From NCBI GenBank assembly GCA_905221615.1, contig CAJNDT010000581.1, forward strand, positions 116,433-180,432: a DNA stretch of 64,000 bases. The letters are read 5' to 3'. The stretch is from Symbiodinium sp. CCMP2592. Its lineage: Eukaryota > Sar > Dinophyceae > Suessiales > Symbiodiniaceae. Of this stretch, positions 26,055 to 62,771 are shown one piece after another (position 1 is the stretch's first letter; every line of letters begins with the position of its first letter). The translations under genes and the position numbers were made by a program. The notes beneath the pieces were generated by a model. That model saw only the letters and a list, made by a program, of their open reading frames with translations. It was not told where the DNA came from and did no database searches.

Positions 26055-29000
26055 TTACCTACGACTGGTGGGGCTACGGCGGCTACGGGTACGGTCCTTA
26101 TTTCCTCGTCCAGGACCGCCCCTTCCTTTATTTCCCTTATCGCCCTTTCCTCGGCCTTTTTCCTGCTTTCCTTTTCCCTTCTCGGCTTTCCCTCTTCCTT
26201 TGCCCTTCGTCGGCTGCCTCACGTCATCAGCTTCATCGATGAGGCCTGTCACGTTGGATCCAGCTCGGGACTTGCCTTTGGCCGTTGTCTCTTTGGCCGG
26301 GCCCATCGTTCGAGATCGTGGCTCCGACGAAGCAGTATCGGAGGGAGCTGGCGGAGCAACATCCGTTGCTTCAGCAGCACGCTGTTGCGTGCGTCCCCGT
26401 GCTTCCGCACCTTTGATCACCTGAGCCGGCGCTGGTCGCACAATCGAGGGAGCCCATTTTTCATCGCGCGGCAACTTCGACGGTGGATTGGACGCAGTGC
26501 GAACGCCTGGTGCATGGGGATTAATCCGCTCCTGAGTAGCAGCAGATGTGCTACCGGGCGAGGCTGCTCGTCCCGTCCCCGTATTCTCGGTATGGGGAAC
26601 AGTCACACCAGCCGCCCTCATATTGACATCGTCATCAGGATTCGCGCTCATCGCGATTATGACACCCGCGGCCTTCTTCCTGATGATGGAAAGCGTGTTC
26701 GGTGCATGATACATGCGAATGATCTCCTCAATCGTTGGGTTATCCAGATCCGACTCTGGAACCCGAGTCTTCATTCGCAGCACCGGGGGCAACTGCATCT
26801 GATCGGAGTATGCTGCCCTCCCCGACACCCTTAGCGGTTCTCCATCAGGATGAGCAGCGCTGTAGCCCGTTTGCCGATGTGACTTTCGAGTCGGCAAATT
26901 TGACGGCGGCGGCATGTTACGCGGCGGAGGCGGAAACGTCTCAGGAGCGACGCCTCCGAGGTGTTCTCGTCCAAGGCGTTGTGATGTCGGACCGGGTCGG
27001 ACCGCCCGTTCGAGCTCACTATCATCCTCATCCTCGTCATCTGGAGGAATGGGGACGGCATGAGCCTCGGGAATCGGCGCTTGTCTTTGCTCGGTGACCT
27101 GCACTCTGCGCTGAGGCGTAGTGTCACGCCGTCGTGCCTGTCGAGCTGCAACATCGAACAATCTCGGAGGTTCATCCAGTTCATCGGGTAGAGCCTCGAA
27201 GACATCCTCAGTCCTCTTCATCAGAAGCGGGTCAGTGCTCTTAGCATCGGGGAGCTGATCCTTCACTCCTTCAACAAGATTGAAGAATGTCTTCTCTGTT
27301 TCACGATCATCGTCAAAGCATTCCTTTATCTTGAGGGCGTGATCGCGAACGAACTCCTTGAATTCCTTACGCGTCTCATCCGGCGTTTCGGCTGCATCAA
27401 GGAGTGCCGTATTCCCCTCAGCGACAATCGTGAATCGGGGGTCAGAGTGGTGCGGAATGAGCTTCCGTCCCAAAGGGTCCAACTCACGCCAGTTGATGGC
27501 TTGGATGTCGGACTCATCTTCCCCTTTGCCCTTCCCTTTGGGCTTCTCACTCGCCGCTGCGGCTCCTTCGATCTCCTCTGCTTCATCGTCAGAGATATAG
27601 CCAGGCTCACCTTTCATCGGAATGCCGTAGCATGTGGTAAGGGTAACCTTGGCCAGGAGCGCGGAAAGGCTCTCACTATCGACACGCATGTAACGCTGAT
27701 ACTTTTGCGTAGTATTCGTGATAGTGGCACGGAATTCATCCAACGTTCCAAACTCGGTGGAGAGTCGAATGAGCCGCCTCATCGCCAGATTGGCGTTCTG
27801 CAAGGGCAGATGCGCAAGTCGAATCTTTTCTGCCATCTCTGGGTCGATGGTGTAATCGACCGTCCCACCTGTGTAAAAGGGGGAGAGATATCCTCGCGAC
27901 AGGCAGACTCGGTATGCGCGCTGGCAGTGGATCGACCAGCGTGCATAGTAGCACAGCGGCTTTTCGCGACATGTGGCGAAGACCGCTCCAAAGTGCTTGA
28001 CAAGCGTGGCAGCACATGCGATCGACTGTGAGTTGAAGAAGTCCTCCACGCCACATCGAGCTTCCTTGCCAGTGATACCGGCAACAAGCCTCTCAATGGA
28101 AATGTCTAAGCGAATGGCGCCTTGAATCGTACCGCGCACGCTTTTCTTGAACAGTTCCACTTCCTTCGGCGATGTGTCAGCTGCGGTGCATTTGATCGGC
28201 GGCACTCCGAAGAATGCGGTTTGCCTATGGTCCTCAGCGAGAGACCTAGACACCGGGAAATTCCTCAGCTGCTTGATCGCAGGAAACTCGTGAAGCTGGA
28301 ACTCGGTAAGCTCGTTTCGCTCGATCAGATCGTTGAGCCACTCAGCATGACTTCCGTAATATTCAACCTGGAAGGGGTTCACAGGATCGGCGTAGAACAT
28401 CCCATCAGGATAGTGAATCGGCTTAGTGCAAGAGTGGCACATGTGGAGACCAACCGGGAATGAAGCTCCGCACATGGGGCAGTCGAAGCTAGCGAGTGGC
28501 CACGTTTCTCGTTTGTGGTCTCCTCTCTTAGGGCCAGTGCCAAACTTCGGACCTCCGATGTATTTGAAGGCCGTGTTGAACACTAGAGATCCCGTATCCA
28601 TGAAGTATGCAATCGGCATACATGCGAGAGGGATACTGTCCTTGATCGCATAGTACCCTCTCGGATGGAAAGTAATCGGGTTGATACCCGCCGCAATCAT
28701 GTGCAAATCAATGGCAAAAACAATCATGCGGTTGGATCCCATTCCTTCGGGGAGCATGCATTGTGATGACGCGGTGTTCGAGAGCGTCTCACGTCCCGGG
28801 TTCATTCGGACGTTCATGTACACCTCTTCCCACTCATTGTTCTTCCCAGATCCAGGGGCATACGGGAGCAATGTGAGGAAGAGCTGCCCCTTCGGGGGAT
28901 TGATCTTGCAATCGTTCATGTATCCGAAGAACTCGCGAATCGTTGCGCATCCCCATCCGTACTGAGGATGGTATCGGGCCACATTTCGTCTCCTCTCGCC

Positions 29001-29870
29001 GCTGACATAATGGTCTTGAGCGAGCTGAATGAATGGCCCGTGCTGACACTTGATCAGCAGTCGGAATCGGTTGAAATTATCGGGACCGAAACCATAGGTT
29101 GCTCGGATGCCAACAAATTGAGGACTTCCATCGTTGTCGATCGTCGAATAGAAGAACTCAAACATTCGGTTGTTGTCCGTCCGAGCAATCTCCATGATGC
29201 ACTGGACGGTGAGCTCGCTCGGCTTATCGTCATCATCCAGAACGCTTGTCTGGAGAAGCGTCCGGCCGCTGAATTCGCCAGCGTTGGCCTTCATGTATTC
29301 CCTCTCGCGTTCCATGTACATCGGAATGACACCGAAAGCGATGATGCCACTCTGGTCGAGGTATGAATACAAGGGAACGCCCCTCTCTTGATCCTGGGGG
29401 CGATTCTGTGTTCTGACGGCAGTCGCGGATGGATACTCCTTCGTCTGCGTCAGCACTCGGAACAGCAGCTTACGCACCAAACTGATCATGCCTGCGTCCG
29501 GAATCCTGGCGGCAGGGATGTTTTGTGCGTCATCAATAAGCAATCGGCTGCATGACACAGATGTTCCGCCGACAGATCGGTATTTTGCCTCTTTGGCATT
29601 GTAGGCCCGGACAGCTTCATGAATCTCGCGGCAGTCCTCATAAGATTCCGGTCGGAGGAAAGAATCGTAGTCTCCTTTGACAGGTTTCTTGTGAAGTGCC
29701 ATGTTCAAGTACACTGTCTGATTCGAGGACAGCATGGCGAATCGGCGCCTCGAATACTTGCGCTGTTCGTCGGTCGGTGGGAGACAGGTCGCGGAGACCA
29801 ATCGACCATGGACGGAGTCATCGATGCCCATGTGGAGTTCGATCTGGGACGACGAAATCTGGCAGTGCAA
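26055..29870 (-). CDS. Element 1 ORF4, 1271 aa, zinc-ribbon, basic Gly/Lys tail
   Basis: Function unknown. A C-x2-C..C-x2-C zinc-ribbon (CPMCGASFP..MCHSC) lies near residues 463-482. The region after about residue 850 is acidic and Pro-rich and therefore disordered. The last 50 residues are a repetitive Lys/Gly tail (KGKGRGKAEKGKGK..) that would bind nucleic acid. The ORF begins 53 nt inside the end of the preceding 1124-aa ORF in a different frame. The last ORF of Element 2 has a comparable zinc ribbon and a comparable Gly/Lys/Arg tail, so the two probably play the same role. They are too diverged for me to align elsewhere. Confidence 0.7.
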   Translation of the reverse strand: MHCQISSSQIELHMGIDDSVHGRLVSATCLPPTDEQRKYSRRRFAMLSSNQTVYLNMALHKKPVKGDYDSFLRPESYEDCREIHEAVRAYNAKEAKYRSVGGTSVSCSRLLIDDAQNIPAARIPDAGMISLVRKLLFRVLTQTKEYPSATAVRTQNRPQDQERGVPLYSYLDQSGIIAFGVIPMYMEREREYMKANAGEFSGRTLLQTSVLDDDDKPSELTVQCIMEIARTDNNRMFEFFYSTIDNDGSPQFVGIRATYGFGPDNFNRFRLLIKCQHGPFIQLAQDHYVSGERRRNVARYHPQYGWGCATIREFFGYMNDCKINPPKGQLFLTLLPYAPGSGKNNEWEEVYMNVRMNPGRETLSNTASSQCMLPEGMGSNRMIVFAIDLHMIAAGINPITFHPRGYYAIKDSIPLACMPIAYFMDTGSLVFNTAFKYIGGPKFGTGPKRGDHKRETWPLASFDCPMCGASFPVGLHMCHSCTKPIHYPDGMFYADPVNPFQVEYYGSHAEWLNDLIERNELTEFQLHEFPAIKQLRNFPVSRSLAEDHRQTAFFGVPPIKCTAADTSPKEVELFKKSVRGTIQGAIRLDISIERLVAGITGKEARCGVEDFFNSQSIACAATLVKHFGAVFATCREKPLCYYARWSIHCQRAYRVCLSRGYLSPFYTGGTVDYTIDPEMAEKIRLAHLPLQNANLAMRRLIRLSTEFGTLDEFRATITNTTQKYQRYMRVDSESLSALLAKVTLTTCYGIPMKGEPGYISDDEAEEIEGAAAASEKPKGKGKGEDESDIQAINWRELDPLGRKLIPHHSDPRFTIVAEGNTALLDAAETPDETRKEFKEFVRDHALKIKECFDDDRETEKTFFNLVEGVKDQLPDAKSTDPLLMKRTEDVFEALPDELDEPPRLFDVAARQARRRDTTPQRRVQVTEQRQAPIPEAHAVPIPPDDEDEDDSELERAVRPGPTSQRLGREHLGGVAPETFPPPPRNMPPPSNLPTRKSHRQTGYSAAHPDGEPLRVSGRAAYSDQMQLPPVLRMKTRVPESDLDNPTIEEIIRMYHAPNTLSIIRKKAAGVIIAMSANPDDDVNMRAAGVTVPHTENTGTGRAASPGSTSAATQERINPHAPGVRTASNPPSKLPRDEKWAPSIVRPAPAQVIKGAEARGRTQQRAAEATDVAPPAPSDTASSEPRSRTMGPAKETTAKGKSRAGSNVTGLIDEADDVRQPTKGKGRGKAEKGKGKQEKGRGKGDKGNKGRGGPGRGNKDRTRSRRSPTSRR

Positions 29871-32800
29871 TCGGGACAGACGTCATTTCGTACTGCACGA
29901 TCGGCGCAATGGAGTCAATACCCCTTTCGGGCAACTGATCAGGGCGATGGATCGTTGTCGCCTTGATGCCAGGGCCCTCGATCCGGCAGTTTCTCGGATC
30001 ATTTGCCGCCTGATCGGCTGTGGTGCTGGCCGGGTCAATATCGACATCCGGTCCTCGAGCACCGGAGAGCACGGCTCCCTGAGCAGGCATGACATTCGGA
30101 GAACTGGAACGCACGCCGAGTTCCGGAGGGTTCTCAGCGGTTCGGGCAGCTGGTGGCGGGGCCTTGCCGGGGACCTCGTCATGCAGCTCCTTTCCGCCAC
30201 CCATATCTGAGTCCTCCTCGGGTTTCTGCTCAGGCAGCTGATCGGCCGTGTCATCATCCATCTTGGTATCATCGTCATCCTCCTTTGCACTCTCTTCGGA
30301 CGCCCTCGGAGGTGCTGCCGCTGTAGGCGGAGGAGGAGGAGCCACGTTTGGCGGGGGCGGCGTTGCCGTACGCCCAGATGCGGCACTGGCCTGCTCGGTG
30401 GACAGAAGATCGTTGTCCGCCGCGCCTTCACCCTGACTACTCAGGGCGCCTGAGGCGTCACTGCGACGCGAGGAGGAAGCGGCAATAGATCGGGCATGCC
30501 TCTGGAACTCGCTCGCAATGAAACCTGCAGTGTTTCGCAGCTGTACCGCAACACTGCGATGGAACTGGGACAACCTGTCATCCCCAGTTCGGCCGATAGT
30601 GCCATAGCTCAAGTCATCGGTGAGTCCCATTAGGCTCTGCACCGGGTCTTCTTCCGGCTTGCGGAATTCAGTCACTCGTCGTTGCATGGCGAAGCCCGGT
30701 GGCAGCTTGAGGTCCTCTCTCGTCAACCTCGCCGCTGTGTTATTCACCAGGGCAACCCGCATGGACTGAATGACTTTTCCGGGGGTAGGCGCAATGAGCT
30801 CTGGTTTGAACACCATCTGTTCGAAGGACATCGCACCCATGCCACGGTGTCGGATGGCAATCTGCAACGACTGGTATGTGTTGAGAAGCGATCGAGCCAT
30901 ACCATACGTCGAGGGAATGTGCGGATGGAACACAGGGAGGGTTGACATGCTTGCAACCACTGCATCCAGGTTGGAAATAATCGCACCAACCTTAGCTTCA
31001 AGCTCCCCCCTGTTTCCATACTCCGGGGTCCATCGTGCATCGATGGCAGACACAGTCTCACCAGTGTCTCGGTTGATGAGCACAGGCGTGAATCGGTCGC
31101 TGGCCATCTCCCTGATGAGATTGCTGTTCGATTCGACCCGACGTCTGCCTTGAGCCAGTCGGTTCGTGACAGCGTCAAGCGCATAGTCACCCGGAGGATA
31201 CAAGGCACCCTGGAACACATTGTCATCGCTCATGTTCGGGTCCAAGATCTTGGCTAGCCCATCGGCAATGGATCGAAGATGTTCGGCATTCTCAACACCG
31301 GTGGCGCCCTTTGCCACTTCAGCGATATGCGCTTTCATTGTCGCAGCCTGTTCGCGGCGAGCTTCAGCTTCACTGACTTGGCTTTCGAAGTGCGCATAAC
31401 CTTGTCGATTCTCGGCGGTGGGCCCCGCGGCTTCCTCGCCACCAATTGGCTTTGGCTTCTTCATCGTAGAGAGAGGGATCGACGGCACGGCAGGTGGTCG
31501 TGCAGCGTTCCGATTGGCAGCGACAGTTCGCTCGGCATCCCGAGGAGTAGGCATTTTCCCGAATGCCTCAGTCATTCCTTCGAGAAGCCCATTGAACTCC
31601 TCATTCTTGACTGCGGGCATCGCCGCATCACCATCCCCTTGCTGTTCGTCGTCATCGGAACTGCTGCTAGATTCTTCATCGTTCGTAGCAGCCGGAGCAA
31701 GGCCGGGCGACACTGGCATTGCCTCGCCAGGCACAGGAGTAGCTGGCAACTCAATCGGATCCGGATGACGAACACCCGGTAGATCCGCCAATGTTCCCTG
31801 TTCCTCTTTGATCGGATTCCCGGGAGCTGTCGGACCTACGTCGTCAGGCATATCGTCATCGTCGTCATCATCGAAGCCAAGCCGACTCATATCGACAGTC
31901 TCTGCGGCTTGATGATCGGCGCCGCGATCTGCACCATCGATGAGGTCCTGCACTGTGGAGTGCACAATGGCCTTCACCGTGCCCGTCGACTTCTCTTCCG
32001 GGACTGGGGTGCGTGCCCACATTTTATCGGCAGCGATCTGATACTCCCGGCGTGTCCCGTAAGACGGAAACCGTGCGAGAGCCGCAAGTGTGAACATCGA
32101 GCAGATACGAGTACACAGGACCCCAATCGTTTTGGATTCATGCATGATGTGATATCCCTTCAGGTACGGCAGACCTTCCAGGATAGCGTCAAACGACAGA
32201 GTGAGGAAGTTGGACCTCCTGATCTCGTCCCAGATTGATCTCATCTCCTCTCTGTATTTCTCGAAGAGAGGGCCAGGAAGAGTCGGAAGATGCACCATGC
32301 TCGGTGACACCGGTCCGCAAAGGGACACCGATCCGTAGATCGTATTATACTTCTCGAGAGCATCCCGGGCGGTTGTTTTGGCATATTGAGATCGTGCCAT
32401 GTCGATGTCACCAGTCAGCTTGTTCCAGCCCTGGTCTATCTTCCACAGATCTTCTCCTCTCCAAAGGATGAGGATGTGCACATTCGATGGCGGGATGGAG
32501 GTCTCGCTCTGCATCATCGCGAGCGTGTCGACCATATCCTTGAGCTTGTTGTCCTCACCAAACGCCTGCACGCGCACCTCGGAATCAGGGAACCCAAAGC
32601 TCGTCAGCGCGCTTTTCAGATGGGCGTTCATCTCACCATCGTGCCAGGACTTGGCAGACCTGAAGGACAGCAGGCCATCGTGCATGACAACGAATCTCTG
32701 CGGCTTGCTGGGTACCGCCGGCTTGATCGTTGGCGGAGCACCCCCAAATGCAATCGTGGAGGCCATGGTCGTGACCGTTCTGACTCCATGGATCGAGACG

Positions 32801-33192
32801 GCCACAAGTGCATCGGCCGGGCTCCAAACAGGCGCGCTAATGATATCCGTTGTTCCTTCTTCGCCGTACGGGATACCCTTGACGCTCTTGGCGGGCGTAT
32901 AGCCGAAATTTCCGAGCATAGTATGCCTTTCGGTAGTGTCTGCACCATGCCTCCCATTCTTTGGAGGGTCCTCCGACAATTGTCTCGAGCCTTGCAGGCT
33001 TTGGCAAACCTTGGCTTCCTTCCTCTCCCAGGATGGGTGCTCGAAGCTGGAAGAATGGAGCAAGCTCGAATCGGTAGCTGGAGGACTGAAGTTCGGATAG
33101 CAAGGCATACCTGCCACCGACAGTCGCGTGCTCACTGGTCCCGTGAGAGTCGGGCATCCAGTGATTGCGTCGAAGCACTGCTGAGTGGACAT
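29818..33192 (-). CDS. Element 1 ORF3, 1124 aa, unknown
   Basis: No family firmly recognised. Residues about 165-330 form a globular region with a buried strand NVHILILWRGEDLW, followed by a motif-poor helical part. It is superficially like the block of SGNH hydrolases around their second motif, but no GDS or catalytic DxxH was found. Acidic runs (DDDDDD near 31855-31870) and Pro-rich linkers (near 30320-30360) separate it from a helical C-terminal region. The ORF overlaps the preceding ORF by 61 nt and the next by 53 nt. Confidence 0.65.
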   Translation of the reverse strand: MSTQQCFDAITGCPTLTGPVSTRLSVAGMPCYPNFSPPATDSSLLHSSSFEHPSWERKEAKVCQSLQGSRQLSEDPPKNGRHGADTTERHTMLGNFGYTPAKSVKGIPYGEEGTTDIISAPVWSPADALVAVSIHGVRTVTTMASTIAFGGAPPTIKPAVPSKPQRFVVMHDGLLSFRSAKSWHDGEMNAHLKSALTSFGFPDSEVRVQAFGEDNKLKDMVDTLAMMQSETSIPPSNVHILILWRGEDLWKIDQGWNKLTGDIDMARSQYAKTTARDALEKYNTIYGSVSLCGPVSPSMVHLPTLPGPLFEKYREEMRSIWDEIRRSNFLTLSFDAILEGLPYLKGYHIMHESKTIGVLCTRICSMFTLAALARFPSYGTRREYQIAADKMWARTPVPEEKSTGTVKAIVHSTVQDLIDGADRGADHQAAETVDMSRLGFDDDDDDDMPDDVGPTAPGNPIKEEQGTLADLPGVRHPDPIELPATPVPGEAMPVSPGLAPAATNDEESSSSSDDDEQQGDGDAAMPAVKNEEFNGLLEGMTEAFGKMPTPRDAERTVAANRNAARPPAVPSIPLSTMKKPKPIGGEEAAGPTAENRQGYAHFESQVSEAEARREQAATMKAHIAEVAKGATGVENAEHLRSIADGLAKILDPNMSDDNVFQGALYPPGDYALDAVTNRLAQGRRRVESNSNLIREMASDRFTPVLINRDTGETVSAIDARWTPEYGNRGELEAKVGAIISNLDAVVASMSTLPVFHPHIPSTYGMARSLLNTYQSLQIAIRHRGMGAMSFEQMVFKPELIAPTPGKVIQSMRVALVNNTAARLTREDLKLPPGFAMQRRVTEFRKPEEDPVQSLMGLTDDLSYGTIGRTGDDRLSQFHRSVAVQLRNTAGFIASEFQRHARSIAASSSRRSDASGALSSQGEGAADNDLLSTEQASAASGRTATPPPPNVAPPPPPTAAAPPRASEESAKEDDDDTKMDDDTADQLPEQKPEEDSDMGGGKELHDEVPGKAPPPAARTAENPPELGVRSSSPNVMPAQGAVLSGARGPDVDIDPASTTADQAANDPRNCRIEGPGIKATTIHRPDQLPERGIDSIAPIVQYEMTSVPIALPDFVVPDRTPHGHR

Positions 33193-35090
33193 GCAGTGAC
33201 TCGCTCCGTTGCCTCACTGCCACCCGCTGCAGCCTGATCATCAGCCGCGGTCGCTCCAGATTGTTCTGTCTCGGTAGAAGCAACCTGTTGGGTAGCGTTG
33301 CCCCCCTGAATCGTGAGGTCGGCGAACTCGACACTATCGCGAGCGACGCTGTCTCCCAGCAGCTTCAGAGTGCGAGGATCGATCGGGCTCGCCTCCATCC
33401 ATGGGTGCCAGGCCACGGCTTTGGTCCCATCGGTACTGAGGAATCGGTGTCCGTGGATGACGTAGTGCGGAGAGGTAGAGACCCCTTGTTCGCGGTCATC
33501 CAGAAGGCGGAAGGGCCTGAACGCGATCCCGCACAGCTCGAGGAATCGAGTTCCGACGCGGATCTGTTTCTGGGATCCCCCCAGCCTCTTCGTCGTGCGA
33601 CCGTGGCTGTTCACCACAGTCCGGGAGACACAGATCATCACTTGGAACCAGTATCCTCCGCCGAGGTATGTGCCAGACGCGTAGCTACTGGCAGCCTCGG
33701 AAGCGTGTCCAGTCACCCAGACGCAGGGTTCGTGACTTCCATGATCGTCCGTCACGTAATCCTCCCCGAACAGACCTCCGTGTGCAAGAATCGACCAGAG
33801 GTATCGGAGATTTGTTCCGCGAAGGAACGTTTCCTGAGGATCGTAAATGTCCGAATTCATCGCGGGGACATACACCCATCCATCAGTCGGGCGGATGGTA
33901 GTCTGCCCCGCACCGTCCTCATAGGTCATAGGGGCGCTGGCTCCCCAGTTGAGCGTATCATCGACGCTAACGCATCGCCCGGGGTAGGTCTCAGCCATCG
34001 CTTTCATGAACGAGACCCACCCGCGCATCAACGGGGTATTTTCATCGTCGTCTTCGTTGCGAAAGGCGGCCGCTTCCCCGATCCCGTTCGCATCCACGGC
34101 AGGAAGATCGTAGCCGTGTTCCTTGCGATCGTTATCGAGGTGAGTCGCTTGCTCTTTCAAAGAGTCCAGCGTGGGGAATCGGTTAAGAGCCTTGAGTGCC
34201 AGGAACGATCCAGGGATGAAAGAAAGTGTCGGCCTGAGCTGCAGAAATCCCTTGAAGAACTTCACAGCATCAACCTGGCTGACCGCATCCCTTGACAACT
34301 CAATGGGCGACAGCTTGGTGAGGTCGTTGTGTTTGATACTCGTATCGGTCCTCAACCATCGCTGTTCCGCAGTCGAACTGCTGTATCCCATGAGATTTCG
34401 GTTCCAGCTCGCAAGAGGCGACGGGATATAGCAGGTTCCCATGAGACGGAGCGTATCGTTGCTCAGCGTCTCTCGGGATCCCTTAAAGCTCTGCGCTTGG
34501 AAGTGCATACAGTGGCGAGCCAGCGCCATCGTAAGGTCCATTTTCTCGCGGACCCCTGCGGCGTCACCAGACAACGTCGCCACTCGGGAAAATGCAAGAG
34601 CGCACATCACCCTGTAACGGTCGATGAAGTCCATAATCTCTCGGGGGTACTGCTTCCTCTGCTTATCCGCGAGCGGATGAGTAGTGAGGAGGAAGGAGTC
34701 AACCAGCTGGTGCAGCTTTTGATCGTAACCAGGGTTGCATGTCAGCTGCTCGAGGCGTTGCCAGATTGAGGCCTGTGGGATCTCTTGGATCCCAATCTTC
34801 AGCATCATCGCCTTCATCCTCAATCCTATCGGAATATCCTCAGAGCGCTTTCCACCCCCGGTAGACTCATCTCTCGGAGTCTGAATCGGGACAGGGGCTT
34901 CATCGGTGCCCATGTCAGAATCAGCCTGCTCCGTGGGAATCGGCGGAGCAGGAGGCCTTCCCGTAGTCGGTGCAATCGGACCGCTCGGAAGGCCTTCCCC
35001 GCATGGCGAGGGAGACTTCGGCTGAGGTGATCGGGCAGCCGGTGTCTTGGCAACAGCCTTCTTCGGTGGCTGCTTGTTCTTTCCTCCCAT
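33132..35090 (-). CDS. Element 1 ORF2, 652 aa, possible ADP-ribosyl-transfer-like fold
   Basis: The N-terminal 90 residues are Pro/Lys-rich. Residues about 415-500 read FLRGTNLRYLWSILAHGGLF, later VWVTGHASEAASSYA and then YWFQVMICVS. This order, H/R-G-T, then an x-x-I-L-x-x-G-L helix, then a strand with Ala-rich helix, then a beta strand, resembles the core shared by Tpt1/KptA and PARP-type ADP-ribosyl transferases. The first His is Arg here. This is an inference from pattern only. Element 2 carries a much clearer Tpt1/KptA match downstream of its pol. Confidence 0.55.
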   Translation of the reverse strand: MGGKNKQPPKKAVAKTPAARSPQPKSPSPCGEGLPSGPIAPTTGRPPAPPIPTEQADSDMGTDEAPVPIQTPRDESTGGGKRSEDIPIGLRMKAMMLKIGIQEIPQASIWQRLEQLTCNPGYDQKLHQLVDSFLLTTHPLADKQRKQYPREIMDFIDRYRVMCALAFSRVATLSGDAAGVREKMDLTMALARHCMHFQAQSFKGSRETLSNDTLRLMGTCYIPSPLASWNRNLMGYSSSTAEQRWLRTDTSIKHNDLTKLSPIELSRDAVSQVDAVKFFKGFLQLRPTLSFIPGSFLALKALNRFPTLDSLKEQATHLDNDRKEHGYDLPAVDANGIGEAAAFRNEDDDENTPLMRGWVSFMKAMAETYPGRCVSVDDTLNWGASAPMTYEDGAGQTTIRPTDGWVYVPAMNSDIYDPQETFLRGTNLRYLWSILAHGGLFGEDYVTDDHGSHEPCVWVTGHASEAASSYASGTYLGGGYWFQVMICVSRTVVNSHGRTTKRLGGSQKQIRVGTRFLELCGIAFRPFRLLDDREQGVSTSPHYVIHGHRFLSTDGTKAVAWHPWMEASPIDPRTLKLLGDSVARDSVEFADLTIQGGNATQQVASTETEQSGATAADDQAAAGGSEATERVTACPLSSASTQSLDARLSRDQ

Positions 35091-37776: not shown

Positions 37777-37961
37777 GTACACTAGCTAGCGTATCCTCCC
37801 GCCACCTCCCACTACACCTCCGGGAGTACGTAGCAAGCCTAGCAAAAGCTAACCGGCTTCACGCAGTAGCACGGACAACACGAACTTCTCTCTTTTTAGC
37901 GTTGTGGCGAAGTCCCGCGTTAGCCCGGAGAAGAACTCTAGCCTTTGGCTAGCTAATCTCC
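37777..37961 (-). repeat. 185-bp direct repeat, distal copy (TAGC element 3' end)
   Basis: Identical by eye to 38206-38390 (offset 429). It begins GTACACTAGCTAGCGTATCC and ends GCTAATCTCC. Its left edge is the abrupt junction with the Element 1 RT reading frame. It contains nine TAGC words although it is non-coding. Confidence 0.9.
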
Positions 37962-38205
37962 AGGGTGGGTTGGGTGGGCACTCGAAATTTGCCCCCAATA
38001 GCTGGGGGCCTTTCAGCACAATGGCCACGGAGTAGCACTGCTTCACCGGCCATGTGCAGTCACTCTAGCAAACAGACAAGCTTCGTTCTGTTTAGCTTCA
38101 GAGGAAAACCCCTTCGAAGTTTTCTAGCGAAACACCTTCGATGTTTCCCCAAAGGGATACTAGCGCTAGCATACACGGTCGTACCTCGTCCCTCGGTACG
38201 AGTGC

Positions 38206-38390
38206 GTACACTAGCTAGCGTATCCTCCCGCCACCTCCCACTACACCTCCGGGAGTACGTAGCAAGCCTAGCAAAAGCTAACCGGCTTCACGCAGTAGCA
38301 CGGACAACACGAACTTCTCTCTTTTTAGCGTTGTGGCGAAGTCCCGCGTTAGCCCGGAGAAGAACTCTAGCCTTTGGCTAGCTAATCTCC
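38206..38390 (-). repeat. 185-bp direct repeat, proximal copy
   Basis: Second copy of the repeat, 16 bp downstream (in sense) of the RNase H stop. The 244 bp between the copies is unique in the window and is also TAGC-rich. This B-A-B layout is what the 3' end of a split-direct-repeat retroelement would look like. The matching A copy expected at the 5' end is not present, because that end is lost. Confidence 0.9.
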
Positions 38391-38406
38391 TTGCGCAGCC
38401 GTAGGG

Positions 38407-39351
38407 CTACCAGGGACCTAGCTTACGGGCCTTCTTAGCGAACCTCGGAGCCTTCGGCTCTCTGGTCCTTTTCCTCACTCCTAGCTCCTGGAAGTAGCTA
38501 GCCGAGTGTTCGAGGAGACGGCCCAGCACGCGCCACTCTAGCTTTTCCCCCTCCAGGTTCACCCTGAAGTCCGGGGAGAAACTAGCAAAGTTCTCGTTCG
38601 TGAGGTCGTCCGCTAGCTGGTTCAGATCCCTGCGGATCCACTGTAGCTGAAGCTCACAGTTCTTAGCGGAGAGTTCTTCCGCTAGCTCCATCAACACCAA
38701 GGTCGACGGGAACTTCGTCGTCATAGCCTTCTTCAGTAGCGCCTCGTTGGACTGGTTGTCGGTGTAGCCACGGATGGCCACCTTGGAGGTCTTCTTAGCG
38801 TCCCCTTCCGGGACCCATAGCCTCACCCCGACCAGAGTAGCCAGTAGCTCCAGCGCGGCTATGACCTTGTTCGGGTCCCCTTTAGCGAAGGCCCAGGGGG
38901 CCCATTCCTTCTTCACCTCTAGCGAGAACCAGGGACCGTGGCAGCCGTCCACTAGCTCGAGGAAGCCCCCAATCCAGGCACGTCCATTCTCGGCTTTAGC
39001 ATCGGTGTAAAAGGAGAGCGGTGCCGCACCGTCCAATAGCGAGGCCGGCTTCTGGAGACGGCCTCCTGCTTCCAGGCGGTGCGCTAGCCAACCACAGAGG
39101 ACGCGAATCATCGTGGGTAGCGTGAGGAGCCCCAGCTTCCCCTGGACAGCCGAGGACCAAGCGTGTAGCGGTCCCAGGAAGGGGCGCTCCCAGTCTAGCG
39201 CCATGGAAGCGAACCCCAGGCGCCCTAGCCCTTGTGCGAAGGGTCGGGCCTCACACTTCCCATCTCGGACTAGCTTCCGTAGCCATTCCACTAGCCAGTC
39301 GGTTCTCTTCTGAGACAGGCCTAGCCTCCAGGTGGAGTACTCCGTTTCCAT
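38407..39351 (-). CDS. RNase H domain of the TAGC element, 314 aa
   Basis: The RNase H-like fold shows SFYTDAKAENGRAWIGGF (first catalytic Asp), then AALELLATLVGVRLW (Glu helix), GYTDNQSNEALLKKAM (second Asp) and DLNQLADDLTNENF (last Asp). It follows the RT end region (YPFKWAKTRG just upstream in another frame). Between them a TAG stop sits where W is expected in the string V-E-W-L-G, so this part is separated from the RT by a stop as well as a frameshift. Leu codons after a G are written CTA, making GCTA, while other Leu codons are CTC or CTG. Confidence 0.8.
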   Translation of the reverse strand: METEYSTWRLGLSQKRTDWLVEWLRKLVRDGKCEARPFAQGLGRLGFASMALDWERPFLGPLHAWSSAVQGKLGLLTLPTMIRVLCGWLAHRLEAGGRLQKPASLLDGAAPLSFYTDAKAENGRAWIGGFLELVDGCHGPWFSLEVKKEWAPWAFAKGDPNKVIAALELLATLVGVRLWVPEGDAKKTSKVAIRGYTDNQSNEALLKKAMTTKFPSTLVLMELAEELSAKNCELQLQWIRRDLNQLADDLTNENFASFSPDFRVNLEGEKLEWRVLGRLLEHSASYFQELGVRKRTREPKAPRFAKKARKLGPW

Positions 39352-39412
39352 GCCTAGCTACTCCACCCGAAATACCCCCCTCGTCTTGGCCCACTTGAAG
39401 GGGTACCCAAGA

Positions 39413-40228
39413 CTAGAGGGAGAGATAGCTTAGCGGGATCCCCATGCATCCTCTAGCCCCCCGGCCCAAGGACTCGAGGTCATCGGCATAGAGAAGCATG
39501 TCTAGCGGGAACGATGGCCCTAGCAGGTGGTACGTGAGTCGAAGCCCACACGCCGCTATGCAGCTCGCACATGATAGCCCGAAGGTCCCCACCAGATTAA
39601 CGTAAACCGTCTGGCTGTCGGGGTCCCCCGGTGTAGCTTCCTCGGTGTCGATCTGGCACCCTAGGTAGCCATGCTCTCCTTCGGCATGCTTGTAGCGTCG
39701 GTGGGCTTTAGCGATGTCACCCACCACGGAGAAAGCCACCTCGTTAGCGTCGATGTGCTCCCGAAGTAGCTGCTTCTTCTCCCTAGCTCCTGGGGCCCGG
39801 ATCTTGTCCCTGCACTTGATGCGGTGGTTGACCCGGACCCCGTGGGTAGCGTCGTGGATCATCCTCTTCTTTCCACTAGCTTCGTCCTCAACGATGACAG
39901 CTAGCGCGGCGATGGCTCGATGCTCGCCATAGCGGGCTTTGAACTCGCCTAGCGTCATCTTGACCATGAGGCCCTCCGCCACGTCCTCTTCGAACTTCTC
40001 CCTAGCGAACTCCGGTACTCCTCCACCGAGGAGTAGTTCGGGACCCAGGCTAGCGCCGCCTCCCAAGGGGCGTTCTCCAAGGGCCACTTTAGCTGTTCCT
40101 CGAAGACGTGGGGAGTGCGTGGTAGCGGGTCTCTCACCCCCACCGGTAGCCCCTCCTCGGCCTGGAGGAGGAAGTCCCTGTCGGGATCGCCGGCCGCGGT
40201 CAGTAGCGCCCGGATGAGGCGGGGCCAC
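39413..40228 (-). CDS. reverse transcriptase of the TAGC element
   Basis: The RT fingers and palm show KRMIHDATHGVRVNHRIKCRD, VVGDIAKAHRRY (first Asp), VNLVGTFGLSCAS and LLYADDLESLG (YADD, about 39480-39500). This is the DIRS-like/unclassified RT type common in dinoflagellates and not Copia or Gypsy. The true N-terminal part (DPLPRTPHVFEEQ..NYSS) lies in another frame at 39990-40140, so a frameshift at about 40010 splits the gene. The first about 60 residues of the listed frame are therefore probably not native. Confidence 0.8.
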   Translation of the reverse strand: MAPPHPGATDRGRRSRQGLPPPGRGGATGGGERPATTHSPRLRGTAKVALGERPLGGGASLGPELLLGGGVPEFAREKFEEDVAEGLMVKMTLGEFKARYGEHRAIAALAVIVEDEASGKKRMIHDATHGVRVNHRIKCRDKIRAPGAREKKQLLREHIDANEVAFSVVGDIAKAHRRYKHAEGEHGYLGCQIDTEEATPGDPDSQTVYVNLVGTFGLSCASCIAACGLRLTYHLLGPSFPLDMLLYADDLESLGRGARGCMGIPLSYLSL

Positions 40229-40230
40229 CT

Positions 40231-40623
40231 TTAGCAGCTCGGGTCTCCCAGGTCATTAGCTTCCAACCACTCTTTCCAGATCAAGCGTAGCTGCTCCTGG
40301 AGATCTTCGGAGCTAGCTAGGGCACAGCCCTTGGCCCCCCCGGCAGCCATGCGGAAGGCTTCCTTCTCTAGCTCCGCTTCCGAACCTACCTTAGCGAGGA
40401 TCACCTCCATCATCTTCTCCCGTAGCCAGTCCCAGTTGGGACCCTCGGCGTAGCTGCGGGTAGCGTGGGGCCAGCGCCCTGGGGAGCAGAGGCCCCCACC
40501 ATCGTGGTAGCTCTTGTTGCCACCTAGCTGCTGGCAGGTCCTTGGTGGTCCTGAACCCCCTAGCACTCGCGGACCCTCCGGCCGGGAAGGTCTCGGGGAG
40601 CGGGCACTCCGGCCTAGCGCCAC
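40231..40623 (-). CDS. linker region between MTase-like and RT domains
   Basis: The C-terminal half is a charged helical segment (NWDWLREKMMEVILAK, then LQEQLRLIWKEWLEAND) ending in a stop just before the RT frame. It probably belongs to one polyprotein running MTase-linker-RT-RNase H, now broken. The N-terminal half, up to about 40450, is likely out-of-frame reading. Confidence 0.5.
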   Translation of the reverse strand: MALGRSARSPRPSRPEGPRVLGGSGPPRTCQQLGGNKSYHDGGGLCSPGRWPHATRSYAEGPNWDWLREKMMEVILAKVGSEAELEKEAFRMAAGGAKGCALASSEDLQEQLRLIWKEWLEANDLGDPSC

Positions 40624-40972
40624 CCCCCTCCCCCTGGGCAGCGGTAGCAGGGTGCTGGCAGGAGTCCAGAATCAGGGTAGCCAGCCACTGGCACATTCTA
40701 GCGGGCCACTTCTCGGAACCTGAGGTCTTGAAGGGGCCCTTAGCGGGGCGCTTGAACATGCGGCCCAGAGTAGCAGCAGAAGGCAGCGGTCCTGTGTAGC
40801 AGCCCTTTTTGTCATAGCACGGCACGCCTTCGTGAACAAAGTGTGGCATAGCAGAAGAGCACTTGAGCAGCAGCCGTGTCGGCTTAGCGTATGGCGTACC
40901 AAAACTAGGCTGGTGGAAGCCACGGTCCGTAGCCCCTTTTCCAGAAGGTCGGCTAGCGGCGGCCACTGCCAC
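40391..40972 (-). CDS. C-terminal part of the methyltransferase-like domain, shifted frame
   Basis: Continues the MTase after the frameshift near 40935: QPSFGTPYAKPTRLLLKCS, a Cys/Gly loop, then helix KWPARMCQWLATLILDSC near 40670-40700. The remaining residues to 40391 are Pro/Gly-rich and overlap the linker frame, so the genuine part probably ends near 40620. Confidence 0.6.
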   Translation of the reverse strand: MAVAAASRPSGKGATDRGFHQPSFGTPYAKPTRLLLKCSSAMPHFVHEGVPCYDKKGCYTGPLPSAATLGRMFKRPAKGPFKTSGSEKWPARMCQWLATLILDSCQHPATAAQGEGGGARPECPLPETFPAGGSASARGFRTTKDLPAARWQQELPRWWGPLLPRALAPRYPQLRRGSQLGLATGEDDGGDPR

Positions 40973-41514
40973 ATGGAGGCCGGCCGTGTCCCTCGATGCG
41001 GGCCCTTAGCGAGGGCCCCGAGGTCCTCGGGCTGCTCCATGGCGAGGAAAGTAGCTGCACCGTCGGCCACGAGGTTAGCGACCTCAAAGCTGAAATCAGC
41101 AAAAATGCCCAGGATAGCGCGGTCTCGCTCTGCAGGTGTTAGCGTCTCCAGACCTCGGGGAAACTCGTAGCTGCGCACAGGGCGGGGCCCTTGAAAGTTA
41201 GCCCAAGGCGCTCTGGAGAAGCTAGCGCACGGCGGGGAGAGCACCACCGCATCGAACTCCTTGCTAGCGATCCGGTCCAGGTAGCTTTGCCGAATCTTGG
41301 GTTGACTGAGGTCGTATTTAGCGTGCCGTAGCAGGTCGACACACTCGACCCGCACGTCTTTTCCGAACTCTGCTGCTAGCTGGTGCAAACACTGCGCCAC
41401 ATCTAGCCGGCGCGAGGTACCCGAGAAGAGGTAGAGCACCCGTAGCGGCTTTGTGTGCGTAGCGGCCGGCTTTGCTGGCGTAGCAGCCAGTGGGTCTGGC
41501 GTAGCATCCCCCAC
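40672..41514 (-). CDS. C5 DNA-methyltransferase-like domain carried by the TAGC element
   Basis: Motif I-like VLYLFSGTSRRLDVAQ, acidic strand VRVECVDLL, catalytic-loop-like VVLSPPCASFSRA (the Pro-Cys dipeptide of C5-MTases) and MEQPEDLG at the position of the ENV motif. The frame then shifts (-1, at an AAAAGGGG run near 40935) into the frame open at 40391-40972. There the next motif FHQPSFGTPYAKPTRLLL, equivalent to Q-x-x-Y/F-G-x-P, continues. Cytosine methyltransferases carried by retrotransposons are already reported in Symbiodinium, so the presence of the domain is not new in itself. Whether it modifies DNA is not shown. With the frameshift this copy would be inactive unless slippage occurs. 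Confidence 0.75.
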   Translation of the reverse strand: MGDATPDPLAATPAKPAATHTKPLRVLYLFSGTSRRLDVAQCLHQLAAEFGKDVRVECVDLLRHAKYDLSQPKIRQSYLDRIASKEFDAVVLSPPCASFSRAPWANFQGPRPVRSYEFPRGLETLTPAERDRAILGIFADFSFEVANLVADGAATFLAMEQPEDLGALAKGPHRGTRPASMWQWPPLADLLEKGLRTVASTSLVLVRHTLSRHGCCSSALLLCHTLFTKACRAMTKRAATQDRCLLLLLWAACSSAPLRAPSRPQVPRSGPLECASGWLP

Positions 41515-41557
41515 CGGGGGGGGTCACAGGCACTGAGGGCGCAGCCGCCGTAGCGGG

Positions 41558-42856
41558 TCAGTTGGAGGGCTTGTCCTCCTTAGCGGCCTCCGTCTGCTTG
41601 GTGGGGCACTTCGTAGCTGGGTGCTTGCCGAAGCATAGCGAGCAGACGTGCTCGAAATGGCACTTGCTGCCATTCTTGCAGCCCTTGGCATTGTAGCGGA
41701 AGCAGATGGGCTTCCCTTGCGGGGTGCGATCGACACCCAAGCGCTTCTTAGCTTTGCCCCCCTTGGGGGGGGCGTCTTTGCCTTTGCCCTTCCCCTTGGG
41801 GGTCTTAGCAGGCCGCTCCTCGGTCCAGGTCCAGGGCTGCGGCCGTTTAGCATGGAGGGCTAGCGGTGTAGTGAAGTGCCTCTCCTTCACGCTAGCGTCC
41901 TTGTAGGCCAGGACTAGCGCAGCGCCGAAGGAATAGCCGGCCGTGGCCATGACCTTGTACGCATGCTTCCTGATAGCGTGCTCGTAGCTGAGCACCAGGG
42001 GCCACGGGGGCACTAGCGACCCCGAGTCGGCACTGGACCGGAGACCATAGCAATAGTCTCCGAGAAGATAGTCTTTGTAGCGCTCGAAGAGGGCCATGGT
42101 GACATCCTGTAGCTCCTCCCGGTTGGGGTGCTTTAGCTGCATTAGCGTGTTCTGGAGCACCGTGAGCCGCAGCCGTAGCTGCTCCGGCCCAGAGGGCATG
42201 GGGGCCCTAGCTCCCCCCTTCTTCATGGATAGCGTGCCATTGCCATTCCAGACGGGCAGTAGCGTGTCGGGGTCCCATTCGTCCCGGCTGATGACCTCGG
42301 TTAGCGGCTCAGCCCGGAACTCGCCAGATTCGAGCTCGCCTAGCTTCTTCTCAATGTACTCCTTAGCGGGAGTCTGCTTGTCCTCCAGGTCTCCGAACTT
42401 AGCGGTGAAGGCCTGGCGCATGGCCATATAGTCCGTAGCGGGGATGGGCTTTGCCCAGTCCCGGACCTCGCTTGTAGCCTCCGCCTCCGCTTGCCGCTCG
42501 GTGCGGGAATTAGCGGTCCTCCATGCGATGGTGACCCCCGCGGCCTGAGCGCGGCTAGCGAGCGAGGTGGACGGCTCAATTGCAAAACTGTCCTTTAGCA
42601 TCTTCTTGAGGTCCGCCTCATCTGTTGCCGAGGCTGCAAATTTAGCGACGGTATCGATACCGTTGGAAAAGAGCTCGGATTGGATAGTGCGTGGGGGATT
42701 GATCTCGACTTGGTTGCTGCTCTCCCCACCAGAGCTGTAATGAATGTAGGTGTGGCTGGCTAGCACTCTCCACAGACTGGACCCTGTCTCTCTCTCGTAC
42801 TCCCACACGTGCGATCCTATGCAGGCAGAACCGGCGGCCGTTCCTTTTGCACTCAC
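41558..42856 (-). CDS. gag of the TAGC element fused in frame to an LTR-encoded N-terminus
   Basis: 432 aa. Residues 1 to about 56 (MSAKGT..EINPPR) lie in the LTR of Element 2. The gag body follows without a stop after the 42688 junction. The body is helical. It ends with a Lys-rich stretch (KGKGKGKDAPPKGGK), a CCCH finger CFRYNAKGCKNGSKCHFEH (about residues 380-400) and a zinc-knuckle-like CSLCFGKHPATKC. These are RNA-binding modules of a nucleocapsid. The native N-terminus of the gag is lost; the present fusion is a by-product of the junction, but it is open and could be translated. Confidence 0.8.
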   Translation of the reverse strand: MSAKGTAAGSACIGSHVWEYERETGSSLWRVLASHTYIHYSSGGESSNQVEINPPRTIQSELFSNGIDTVAKFAASATDEADLKKMLKDSFAIEPSTSLASRAQAAGVTIAWRTANSRTERQAEAEATSEVRDWAKPIPATDYMAMRQAFTAKFGDLEDKQTPAKEYIEKKLGELESGEFRAEPLTEVISRDEWDPDTLLPVWNGNGTLSMKKGGARAPMPSGPEQLRLRLTVLQNTLMQLKHPNREELQDVTMALFERYKDYLLGDYCYGLRSSADSGSLVPPWPLVLSYEHAIRKHAYKVMATAGYSFGAALVLAYKDASVKERHFTTPLALHAKRPQPWTWTEERPAKTPKGKGKGKDAPPKGGKAKKRLGVDRTPQGKPICFRYNAKGCKNGSKCHFEHVCSLCFGKHPATKCPTKQTEAAKEDKPSN

Positions 42857-43119
42857 TGCCGGCGGCGGTTCGTATGTGCAACGGGATAGCTCTGATTGCT
42901 CAGGATAGAAGACACATATAGCACTTAGCTACGGGCATTGACTTGAGCCAAACGTTGCGTTGGCGGTCACATAGAAAGGTAAAGACGAGGGATGCGTAGC
43001 ATGCCCCCTAGAGTCGAGGGACGCGTAGCGTGCCCCCTTCTCCTGCACTTTACACGGTCTTGCTCACAGCTCTTATAGTGACACCTTAGAACTTGACAAG
43101 GCATCGCAGTCCGTTCGCA
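42688..43119 (-). repeat. Element 2 3' LTR (432 bp)
   Basis: On the plus strand it starts TGCGTGGGGG and ends CGTTCGCA; in sense it runs TGCGAACG..ACGCA. It contains an 11-nt spliced-leader-like segment (42942-42952) and, 86 nt further in sense, an ATG that opens a 56-codon frame running out of the LTR. The left edge is uncertain by one base. It abuts the TAGC element directly. Confidence 0.9.
42942..42952 (-). promoter_or_regulatory. spliced-leader relic in the 3' LTR
   Basis: The sense strand reads TTTGGCTCAAG, identical to the last 11 nt of the dinoflagellate spliced leader (ends ..CCATTTTGGCTCAAG). An identical copy lies at 62203-62213 in the other LTR. A few bases downstream CCGTAGC, equal to the start of the leader, also occurs. 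It could be a relic of a trans-spliced transcript that was reverse transcribed. A chance 11-mer cannot be excluded. Confidence 0.5.
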
Positions 43120-61948: not shown

Positions 61949-62380
61949 TGCGTGGGGGATTGATCTCGACTTGGTTGCTGCTCTCCCCACCAGAGCTGTA
62001 ATGAATGTAGGTGTGGCTGGCTAGCACTCTCCACAGACTGGACCCTGTCTCTCTCTCGTACTTCCACACGTGCGATCCTATGCAGGCAGAACCGGCGGCC
62101 GTTCCTTTTGCACTCACTGCCGGCGGCGGTTCGTCTGTGCAACGGGATAGCTCTGATTGCTCAGGATAGAAGACACATATAGCACTTAGCTACGGGCATT
62201 GACTTGAGCCAAACGTTGCGTTGGCGGTCACATAGAAAGGTAAAGACGAGGGATGCGTAGCATGCCCCCTAGAGTCGAGGGACGCGTAGCGTGCCCCCTT
62301 CTCCTGCACTTTACACGGTCTTGCTCACAGCTCTTATAGTGACACCTTAGAACTTGACAAGGCATCGCAGTCCGTTCGCA
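61949..62380 (-). repeat. Element 2 5' LTR (432 bp)
   Basis: Constant offset of 19261 from the 3' LTR. The LTR-internal ATG (62117) opens a 79-codon frame here that leaves the LTR and stops at 61881, just before or overlapping the next ORF start (61884). The interior adjoining the LTR reads GGTTATCAGCC in sense. This vaguely resembles the initiator-tRNA primer site used by many Copia elements (TGGTATCAG), so a primer-binding site is plausible here. Confidence 0.9.
62203..62213 (-). promoter_or_regulatory. spliced-leader relic in the 5' LTR
   Basis: Same 11-nt segment as at 42942-42952. In this copy it sits 86 nt upstream (in sense) of the LTR ATG at 62117, where the 5' end of a trans-spliced mRNA would lie. 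Confidence 0.5.
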
Positions 62381-62771
62381 CTGAACCTTAAAATGACAAC
62401 CTGTTCTCCTCTGAACTTTGATTCGGACAGCAACGGCCAGGGCCCTCACCGAGCGATGAAGTAGCCAAGGGTCTCATTGTTCACCATACCACCTCGTCCA
62501 ATTCGTATTCACAGCCTCAGGCCCTCAAACCCCAAGCACCCGAACCTCCTAATATACGGACCTTAAAAACCTATACTATTTGGGGGGCTTCCTTATTGTA
62601 ATTTTAGTATAATGGAGCCCCAAAGCCCTATTCTAATTATTCAGGCCCCTATAGCCCCAGTTATAACTACGCACGAATCTCCAAGTACGCCCATGATTTC
62701 CCAAACCTCCGAGACTCGAGTCAGTACACATACGAACCGATTCTCCGCATGAACCTCTAGAAACCAGAGGG

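Follow-up and report, generated by a model that had tools for sequence, protein, structure and literature searches.

An evenly spaced, strand-biased four-nucleotide word along a DIRS-like retrotransposon

Why would a retroelement repeat the same four letters at near-regular intervals? The question is raised by positions 37777 to 42687 of the window (the whole stretch of 64,000 nucleotides analyzed here), in which a first-pass annotation had described a grid of the word TAGC. That observation is correct, and the grid is stronger than was claimed. Between 38401 and 41460, where about 97 TAGC had been counted, 97 start and 96 lie wholly inside; as described, a single interval exceeds 63 bp (71 bp, 39355 to 39426) and intervals below 10 bp are scarce (four). 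Shuffles of this part hold 18.8 words on average and 33 at most, compared to the 96 observed. Over 37777 to 42687, TAGC is the most over-represented tetramer, with 158 occurrences (9.1 times the base-composition expectation) against a mean of 32.9 and a maximum of 48 in 500 dinucleotide shuffles. The spacing is indeed more even than chance, with a coefficient of variation (CV) of the gaps of 0.43 versus 0.94 in the shuffles (minimum 0.61); for 38401 to 41460 the shuffle CV averages 0.90 and falls as low as 0.36, because these shuffles hold few words. The reported strand bias is likewise present: the plus strand carries 28 GCTA versus 158 TAGC, and 19 GCTAGC palindromes contain both.

A truncated copy of a tyrosine-recombinase retrotransposon

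The region is a 5′-truncated copy of a DIRS/PAT-like tyrosine-recombinase retrotransposon, the full-length copies of which measure ~10.3 kb by blastn; its RNase H piece has 126 scored matches in the genome. The element is encoded on the minus strand, and the sense word is therefore GCTA. The word had been said to stop at both element junctions. This holds for 37777, a true element end; homology to the longer copies ends at 42687, and given their ~10.3 kb length this right junction is only a truncation, with six further TAGC just outside (42761–43026) in DNA unmatched to the element copies compared. The Gag-like open frame also extends beyond the truncation, to 42856. Self and pair alignments reveal split direct repeats ordered A1-internal-B1-A2-B2 (A1/A2 228 bp and B1/B2 185 bp in copy A_366), a plan retained in copies of two further families, B and C, with one additional unit in B_479. 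The grid continues through the outer B repeat, in agreement with the earlier remark that the word also occurs in non-coding repeats. The reverse transcriptase frame, separate in the window copy, lies within a single 1065-residue frame in A_366.

Features of the element copy in the window
Feature	Position	Strand	Basis
5′-truncated DIRS/PAT-like copy, 4.9 kb	37777..42687	-	blastn of copies; RNase H genome matches
Grid of sense-strand GCTA: 158 words with a mean gap of 31 bp, CV 0.43	37783..42646	-	
Outer B repeat (B2), 185 bp, not in long ORFs, grid present	37777..37961	-	
A2 repeat region; same sequence is the element start (A1) in full-length copies	37962..38205	-	self/pair alignments
Inner B repeat (B1), 185 bp, identical to B2	38206..38390	-	
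Pol ORF piece: C-terminal part, RNase H-like stretch	38407..39351	-	weak PF13456, E 0.11
Pol ORF piece: reverse transcriptase core	39413..40228	-	LLYADD by eye
Pol N-terminal cytosine-methyltransferase-like domain	40672..41514	-	weak PF00145, E 0.096; SPPC motif
Gag-like ORF, CCCH zinc finger and zinc knuckle	41558..42687	-	

The recombinase residues R392, K419, H508, R511, W534 and Y542 are invariant among 23 aligned sequences and form an R-K-HxxR-W-Y pattern, the spacing of which we take to resemble that of Cre; neither of the two recombinase ORFs scanned matched PF00589. Pol bears a YADD reverse transcriptase motif (PF00078 matched in 2 of 22 homologs) and a weak RNase H match (RVT_3, E 0.11). 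Searches of the PDB returned no match for the Pol profile (E up to 0.01) or for one recombinase (E up to 1). Gag combines its CCCH finger and zinc knuckle with a weak Ty3 Gag match (E 0.023); other clades have Gag proteins with other zinc-finger types. ORF2 evolves fast and has a Cys-rich end. Pfam scans of the Gag, Pol and recombinase ORFs name no DDE integrase in these three ORFs.

The most likely identity of this element is the SymbioDIRS kind of Symbiodinium (de Mendoza et al. 2018, PMC5890265). As far as the excerpted text of that source extends, SymbioDIRS(-Dnmt3) elements share the A-coding-B-A-B repeats, the tyrosine recombinase, an RT/RNase H Pol with a cytosine methyltransferase-type domain, and the shuffled order of the integrase and Pol ORFs. 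The host group is probably the same, judged from protein names: the few relatives with species names among the matches listed are from Symbiodinium, Durusdinium and Cladocopium. The genome carrying the element measures 1.1 Gb and is dinoflagellate-like. No relative turned up in the viral and GTDB scans. Unlike SymbioDIRS-Dnmt3, the methyltransferase-like domain here is weak in Pfam and Cys-less in family C. The excerpted main text of PMC5890265 contains none of 'GCTA', 'TAGC' or 'spacing' and describes no word grid, and a literature search did not find a published description of such a grid. The element is of a known kind, and the grid is apparently new, as far as the search reached.

Even coverage and conservation of the word in three families

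Spacing and counts were measured in seven copies of families A, B and C, and the grid is common to all three; a candidate fourth family, C203, turned out to be family B. Related copies could have lacked the enrichment, and it is present in 20 of 20 loci read, across their element part. In a full-length copy, 332 GCTA occur with a mean gap of 31 and a CV of 0.47, compared with 0.98 at random; they start ~36 bp within the element and stop ~9 bp short of its far end. In 7/7 copies the first word lies 35–39 bp inside the 5′ end and the last 9–11 bp before the 3′ end. Words are about equally dense in coding and non-coding DNA (32.0 versus 33.3 per kb in A, 24.7 versus 25.3 in B, 34.5 versus 33.4 in C). 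Copy A_366 holds 332 GCTA versus 10 TAGC that do not overlap a GCTA, and the word accounts for 75% of its TA steps (332/441). Power at 9–12 bp stayed within that of gap-permuted controls in three of three copies (A_366, B_479 and C_5299), leading us to reject helical phasing of the PATC-like 10-bp type.

The annotated word, TAGC on plus and hence GCTA in sense, stands for the window copy, but it is not fixed, since family C uses GCTA plus GATA. In that family GATA occupies the gaps left by GCTA: the CV of the union is 0.578, versus 0.825 (minimum 0.698) for 5000 random placements, and GATA performs best of 50 tetramers. Family C has one grid with two synonyms; the word lacks cytosine at 118 of 351 places, and the grid persists.

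The annotation had taken the pattern as a sign that the nucleic acid itself is under selection. Two lines of evidence support it, the related copies above and codon-preserving shuffles of the A_366 Pol ORF. In 500 such shuffles neither count nor spacing was reproduced (104 words versus a mean of 40.9 and a maximum of 53; gap CV 0.44 versus 0.89, minimum 0.55). Between A_366 and A_5280, GCTA is intact at 0.971 of 420 comparisons versus 0.791 for all words, ranking first of 133 tetramers; between family B copies the values are 0.959 of 990 versus 0.849 (rank 2 of 228). In family C, GATA (0.943 of 210) and GCTA (0.935 of 387) rank third and fifth of 182 tetramers, with all words at 0.845. Purifying selection bears on about four bases, centred on the word. 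As to whether copies keep word positions or only spacing, spacing is what they keep, and from family to family most positions differ: between A and C, at 66% protein identity, 32 positions coincide of 100 and 95, with density and spacing kept. Words with close neighbours are preferentially lost between diverged copies; the gaps that their loss merges are smaller (p = 0.006, 0.003 and 0.001 in A, B and C).

A comparable tetramer grid was found in neither of two other retroelement regions of the same genome, a Copia-like region of the window (12/31 GCTA/TAGC in 11.7 kb) and the distant relative in locus L035 (14/26 in 7.4 kb), where the counts are near background; host-type DNA of the window is also at background. 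A scan for even tetramers over 556 overlapping two-kb windows of the loci compared, its listing excluding GCTA, TAGC and four overlapping words, gave ten rows. Six were CTAC/CTAG/GTAG and came from element loci; of the others, TCCT and CCCT each had one and TCGG two, both of these within 28001–30500 of the window. Along the Copia-like region (26055–35090), TCGG is enriched (114 versus a shuffle mean of 64.2 and maximum of 84), with a mean gap near 80 bp, gaps up to 292 bp and a CV of 0.82 that 9% of shuffles equal in evenness; within the scan-picked 28001–30500 the CV is 0.58, equalled by 1.7%. ATCG, TCG and CATC rise together with it. We read the TCGG pattern as mainly codon bias and not as a comparable grid, though a weak grid may exist, and its enrichment in this control indicates that other words may matter in other elements.

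Taken together, the density, the kept spacing, the conservation, the redundant loss and the absence of a comparable grid in the two other retroelement regions show that what is under selection is the covering of a single strand by a word of 4 nt.

Candidate readers of the word

We tentatively read the grid as a coverage signal recognized on single-stranded nucleic acid by a candidate element-encoded protein, an explanation we place somewhat short of an even chance. Nearly every ~30–60 nt of the sense strand would need one word, GCTA, or in family C GCTA or GATA. The strand that is read would be genomic RNA or, in a DIRS-type cycle, single-stranded cDNA. The reading protein, with a ~30-nt footprint or reach, would coat the molecule and thereby label it as self, so that it is packaged and reverse-transcribed in cis. 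Candidate readers are Gag, ORF2 with its Cys-rich end and the methyltransferase-like domain, and a changed specificity of such a reader would account for the acceptance of GATA in family C. Predicted RNA unpairedness does not mark GCTA as unusually open (0.399, 0.369 and 0.314 in A, B and C, versus 0.391, 0.390 and 0.375 for other ACGT permutations); GATA in family C is predicted to be more open (0.562). Other observations also count against this explanation: family C shows less strand bias, with 38 TAGC that do not overlap a GCTA; the spacing combines short-range exclusion with a scarcity of long gaps and has no long-range order, so that the grid is nothing like a rigid lattice; among the three C copies closest to each other (0.7% divergence) GCTA does not stand out in conservation (rank 68/241); and at the A–C distance the exact word is in place only slightly more often than other tetramers (0.27 versus 0.214).

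The coverage-type selection, the loss of redundant words and the equal density in coding and non-coding DNA would also fit a reader supplied by the host. A host RNA or chromatin factor may require, or tolerate only, a word every ~60 bases or closer, the grid having evolved as an escape from silencing, decay or nuclear retention. We consider this unlikely: the two other retroelement regions compared have no grid of like strength, host-type DNA is at background, and a second word in one family is less easily explained by a single host reader.

Less likely still, the word may be a base-modification target of the methyltransferase-like domain or a host enzyme, with even spacing giving even modification. 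The PPC motif of that domain is invariant in 22/22 aligned sequences, family A included. Families A and B retain SPPC and the word GCTA, while the Cys position in five family C copies is V (three), A (one) or in a motif not found (one), in the family where A can stand in place of the word's C. However, among the three families compared it is this one in which the grid persists, with GATA conserved, at cytosine-free places; further, the excerpted text of PMC5890265 reports that retrotransposon DNMTs of the host group methylate CG.

A function at the level of DNA appears improbable, with the words as oriented sites of binding or, through their TpA steps, of flexibility that would serve to pack, recombine or integrate the element's DNA. 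The reach of the grid to both DNA ends in all seven copies and the concentration of TA steps inside the word would suit it, whereas the marked preference for one strand along the 10 kb of A and B and the lack of 9–12 bp power above controls do not. Mutation bias, codon usage or antisense-stop creation without selection for spacing is very improbable and was rejected: Leu after G is CTA in 49/66 and Ala before A is GCT in 42/49 codons of A_366 Pol, and TAGC contains a stop codon on the other strand, but existing words are conserved, their positions turn over, redundant ones are those lost, non-coding DNA is equally dense in them, and GATA/TATC creates no antisense stop.

Known systems and implications of a proposed coverage code

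Bacterial Chi, KOPS and DNA uptake sequences are words of 8–12 nt spaced by kilobases in chromosomes. Like the grid, they consist of short words with a strand bias or an even spacing that selection on the nucleic acid maintains; unlike them, the word here is 4 nt, recurs every 30 nt and sits in a mobile element. The PATC of C. elegans germline genes, AT-rich, mostly intronic and with a 10-bp helical periodicity, have been proposed to counter silencing; they too are a distributed signal at the non-coding level, although no 9–12 bp period is present here. Dispersed packaging signals of ssRNA viruses are short degenerate copies in coding and non-coding RNA, presented in stem-loops at tens of sites; the present element also has many short copies, but hundreds of them, with GCTA not linked to structure. 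The HIV-1 genome is A-rich throughout. This A-richness favours binding by the virus's own Gag/nucleocapsid, according to the excerpted text of PMC4991800, and is, like the grid, a distributed low-information RNA feature over a whole retroelement genome; it is a feature of composition, whereas here a discrete word is evenly spaced.

Our preferred reading, then, is that the word marks RNA or cDNA as self and would be bound by an element-encoded protein, perhaps zinc-finger Gag or ORF2. We give nearly an even chance to the wider proposition of a strand-specific 4-nt coverage code with family-specific synonyms and a co-evolving element-encoded reader, marking any stretch of RNA or cDNA as self. 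If true, a transposon would possess a sequence-based self/non-self system independent of position, reading frame and structure. A signal made of hundreds of 4-nt words, under selection for how evenly they cover the sequence and not for where they stand, would be a different way of writing cis-information over coding DNA. Neutral evolution could then not be read from codon choice or synonymous-site rates in such elements, and k-mer evenness would offer a simple scan for further such codes. The cis-preference of retroelements would become directly testable via a GCUA-binding protein.

Element copies and the GCTA grid

A search of the genome containing the window (1.1 Gb, 5383 contigs) with the RNase H piece of the element gave 126 scored matches. 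Around this piece 20 further loci were read, with upstream parts for 10 of the 20 and one short downstream piece; 8 shorter loci among the matches were used for alignment only. The loci sort into three families: A, comprising the window copy, its close kin and older relics, B (74% protein identity) and C (69–70%). Species-named protein relatives, few among the matches listed, come from Symbiodinium, Durusdinium and Cladocopium, which makes a dinoflagellate of the Symbiodiniaceae the most likely host. The plan of the full-length copies matches the SymbioDIRS plan of PMC5890265. The R-K-HxxR-W-Y recombinase signature is invariant across 23 aligned sequences; a Pfam scan made no call for the element recombinase.

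Features of the element, of its copies and of the surrounding sequence
Feature	Coordinates	Strand	Remarks
Element copy, 5'-truncated	37777-42687	minus = sense	Full length ~10.3 kb
Pol of the window copy	38407-41514		Broken into several frames; one open frame of ~1065 aa in A_366 and others
Split direct repeats	full-length copies		A1-internal-B1-A2-B2; A 228 bp and B 185 bp in the C366 copy
Tyrosine recombinase ORF	full-length copies
ORF2	full-length copies		Fast-evolving, Cys-rich end
Gag-like ORF	full-length copies		CCCH finger and zinc knuckle
Pol ORF	full-length copies		1065 aa in A_366; cytosine-methyltransferase-like N-terminus, RT, RNase H
Sequence just past the truncation point	42761-43026		Six TAGC in ~270 bp; no match to element copies analysed
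Right end of the window	62001-64000		18 TAGC and 25 AACC in 2 kb, more than elsewhere outside the element; no match to element copies analysed
Copia-like region	26055-35090		Enriched in TCGG, ATCG and CATC
Scan-chosen stretch of the Copia-like region	28001-30500		2.5 kb
Distant relative (locus L035)	2334-9717 of L035	minus	7.4 kb; CCCH finger, by eye

The family A copy A_366 carries 332 sense GCTA in 10,311 bp (mean gap 31.0, CV 0.47), B_479 carries 232 in 9,360 bp (mean gap 40.3, CV 0.51), and C_5299 carries 351 GCTA or GATA in 10,234 bp (mean gap 29.1, CV 0.58). Random placement gives a CV of 0.98, and the lowest value among 2000 draws was at least 0.80 for each of the three copies. Gap distributions fit a gamma with shape 3.1–4.1. 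Gaps below 10 bp number 17 in A_366 against 85 expected from random placement, and lag counts in A demonstrate exclusion below ~20 bp (20 pairs in the first 10-bp bin and 66 in the second, with 107 expected); this short-range exclusion is weaker in C than in A, and counts past it are roughly flat. Power at a 9–12 bp periodicity did not exceed that of gap-permuted controls. Gap lengths divisible by three are favoured (146 of 331 in A_366).

The grid runs nearly to both ends of the element. In 7/7 copies the first word begins 35–39 bp from the 5' end, and the final one lies 9–11 bp short of the 3' end; the 600 bp flanking the element hold 0–5 words per side. Word density is equal inside and outside open frames of at least 250 aa. 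TAGC without an overlapping GCTA occurs 10 times in A_366, 11 in B_479 and 38 in C_5299. TA steps in A_366 fall mostly within GCTA (332/441); in the window outside the element, TA stands at 0.52 of expectation. Among the open-licence PMC papers listed in literature searches, none reports such a word grid by title or abstract start, and neither 'GCTA' nor 'TAGC' occurs in the main text of PMC5890265.

Selection on the word

The grid word is under selection. The first-pass annotation had read the pattern as arguing for selection on the nucleic acid itself, and codon-preserving shuffles bear this out: with 500 synonymous-codon shuffles for each of 15 open frames, some overlapping, 0/500 reached the observed count in any frame, and shuffles retained 0.39–0.50 of the observed words. 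CV rose from 0.35–0.56 observed to a mean of 0.71–0.93 in the shuffles; the most even shuffle fell below the observed CV in 6/15 frames and equalled it at two decimals in 2/15, and in the three longest Pol frames it did not reach the observed value.

Pairwise comparison of copies, with each pair counted both ways and tetramers ranked irrespective of codon phase, demonstrated preferential conservation of the word. GCTA was intact at 0.971 of 420 sites between A_366 and A_5280 (all tetramers 0.791; rank 1/133), at 0.870 of 752 in the comparison with three older relics (0.614; 2/207), at 0.982 of 2483 in that with five young copies (0.919; 4/243), and at 0.959 of 990 in family B (0.849; 2/228), where GATA conservation is ordinary (0.867; 79/228). 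Between C_5299 and C_1014, GATA (0.943 of 210; 3/182) and GCTA (0.935 of 387; 5/182) both exceed the all-tetramer value of 0.845; among the three nearest C copies, GATA ranks 16/241 and GCTA only 68/241. Relative mismatch within the four word bases is 0.06–0.56 in A and B and 0–0.72 in C, against 0.60–1.38 one base upstream and 0.49–0.92 one base downstream; farther away it lies close to the average apart from the usual codon ripple.

Coverage and the second word of family C

Whether copies keep the positions of the words or only their spacing had been left to related copies to decide. A and C, 66% identical in protein, have 32 words in common in the Pol codon alignment, out of 100 and 95, with 3.1 expected at random; A and B share 29 among 75 and 56. 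Coverage is what selection acts on. The merged gap that remains when a word is lost is shorter for words ever lost than for words never lost in family A (56 bp, n=63, vs 64 bp, n=267; p 0.006), as in B (66 bp, n=29, vs 81 bp, n=425; p 0.003) and C (49 bp, n=41, vs 60 bp, n=592; p 0.001), where two reference copies were pooled and sites are not fully independent. The young family A copies alone (22 words lost, 308 kept) give p 0.048.

In family C, GCTA and GATA form one grid. The CV in C_5299 is 0.74 for GCTA alone, 0.98 for GATA alone and 0.578 for both combined, and when the same number of GATA was placed at random 5000 times, the combined CV averaged 0.825 (minimum 0.698). GATA was the top gap-filler of 50 tetramers with at least 60 copies (z -7.2), followed by GGAT (z -6.2), which overlaps it. 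GCTA gaps above 63 bp contain 70/118 GATA in 41% of the length of C_5299, and C_1014 is consistent (63/103 in 44%). Between C copies, the second base of GATA shows ten single changes; 6 of them yield GCTA, even though A-to-C is outnumbered by another change from A. No comparable second word was detected in A or B (best z -2.7 among 205 words and -3.7 among 215, respectively); GATA itself reaches z -2.7 in B.

Same-genome controls and candidate readers

If a host factor acted on every retroelement, other elements of this genome should bear the GCTA mark as well, and the controls, a small sample, argue against such a factor. The L035 element, situated upstream of the C1014 copy, is distantly related: by tblastn its Gag-like ORF reaches 39% and its recombinase-like ORF 30%. 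It has 14 GCTA and 26 TAGC in 7.4 kb; in the windows listed no tetramer exceeds z 6.9, and the top words have CVs of 0.7–1.3. Lacking the GCTA grid, it is a useful negative control. To the left of the element, 11.7 kb of the Copia-like region contain 12 GCTA and 31 TAGC. The TCGG pattern of this region (114 vs 64.2 in shuffles) is weaker and mostly uneven (CV 0.82 overall, 0.58 in the scan-chosen stretch), yet something is there, possibly codon bias only or a weak grid of a different word.

Several element proteins were considered as readers. The two zinc modules of Gag recur as a pattern in 71 of 120 homologs listed, some of them fragments, and the only PDB match to the Gag profile up to E 0.1 is Ty3 Gag, a weak one (E 0.023). 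Of the ORFs compared between families, ORF2 has diverged furthest (29–32% over matched stretches, vs 49–58% for recombinase and Gag). In the methyltransferase-like domain of Pol, those A and B copies in which the motif could be located keep SPPC, and the PPC cysteine is present in all 22 aligned Pol sequences; in five C copies (L017–L021) that position is V in three and A in one, the motif not being found in the fifth. It is tempting to see the altered cysteine in C as parallel to the loss of a strict C in the word, a comparison across three families only.

Taken together, the copies show that a strand-specific four-nucleotide word, whose synonyms depend on the family, is selected for coverage along the entire element. 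A putative reader would bind the single-stranded nucleic acid of the element with a reach near 30 nt, and is probably encoded by the element itself.
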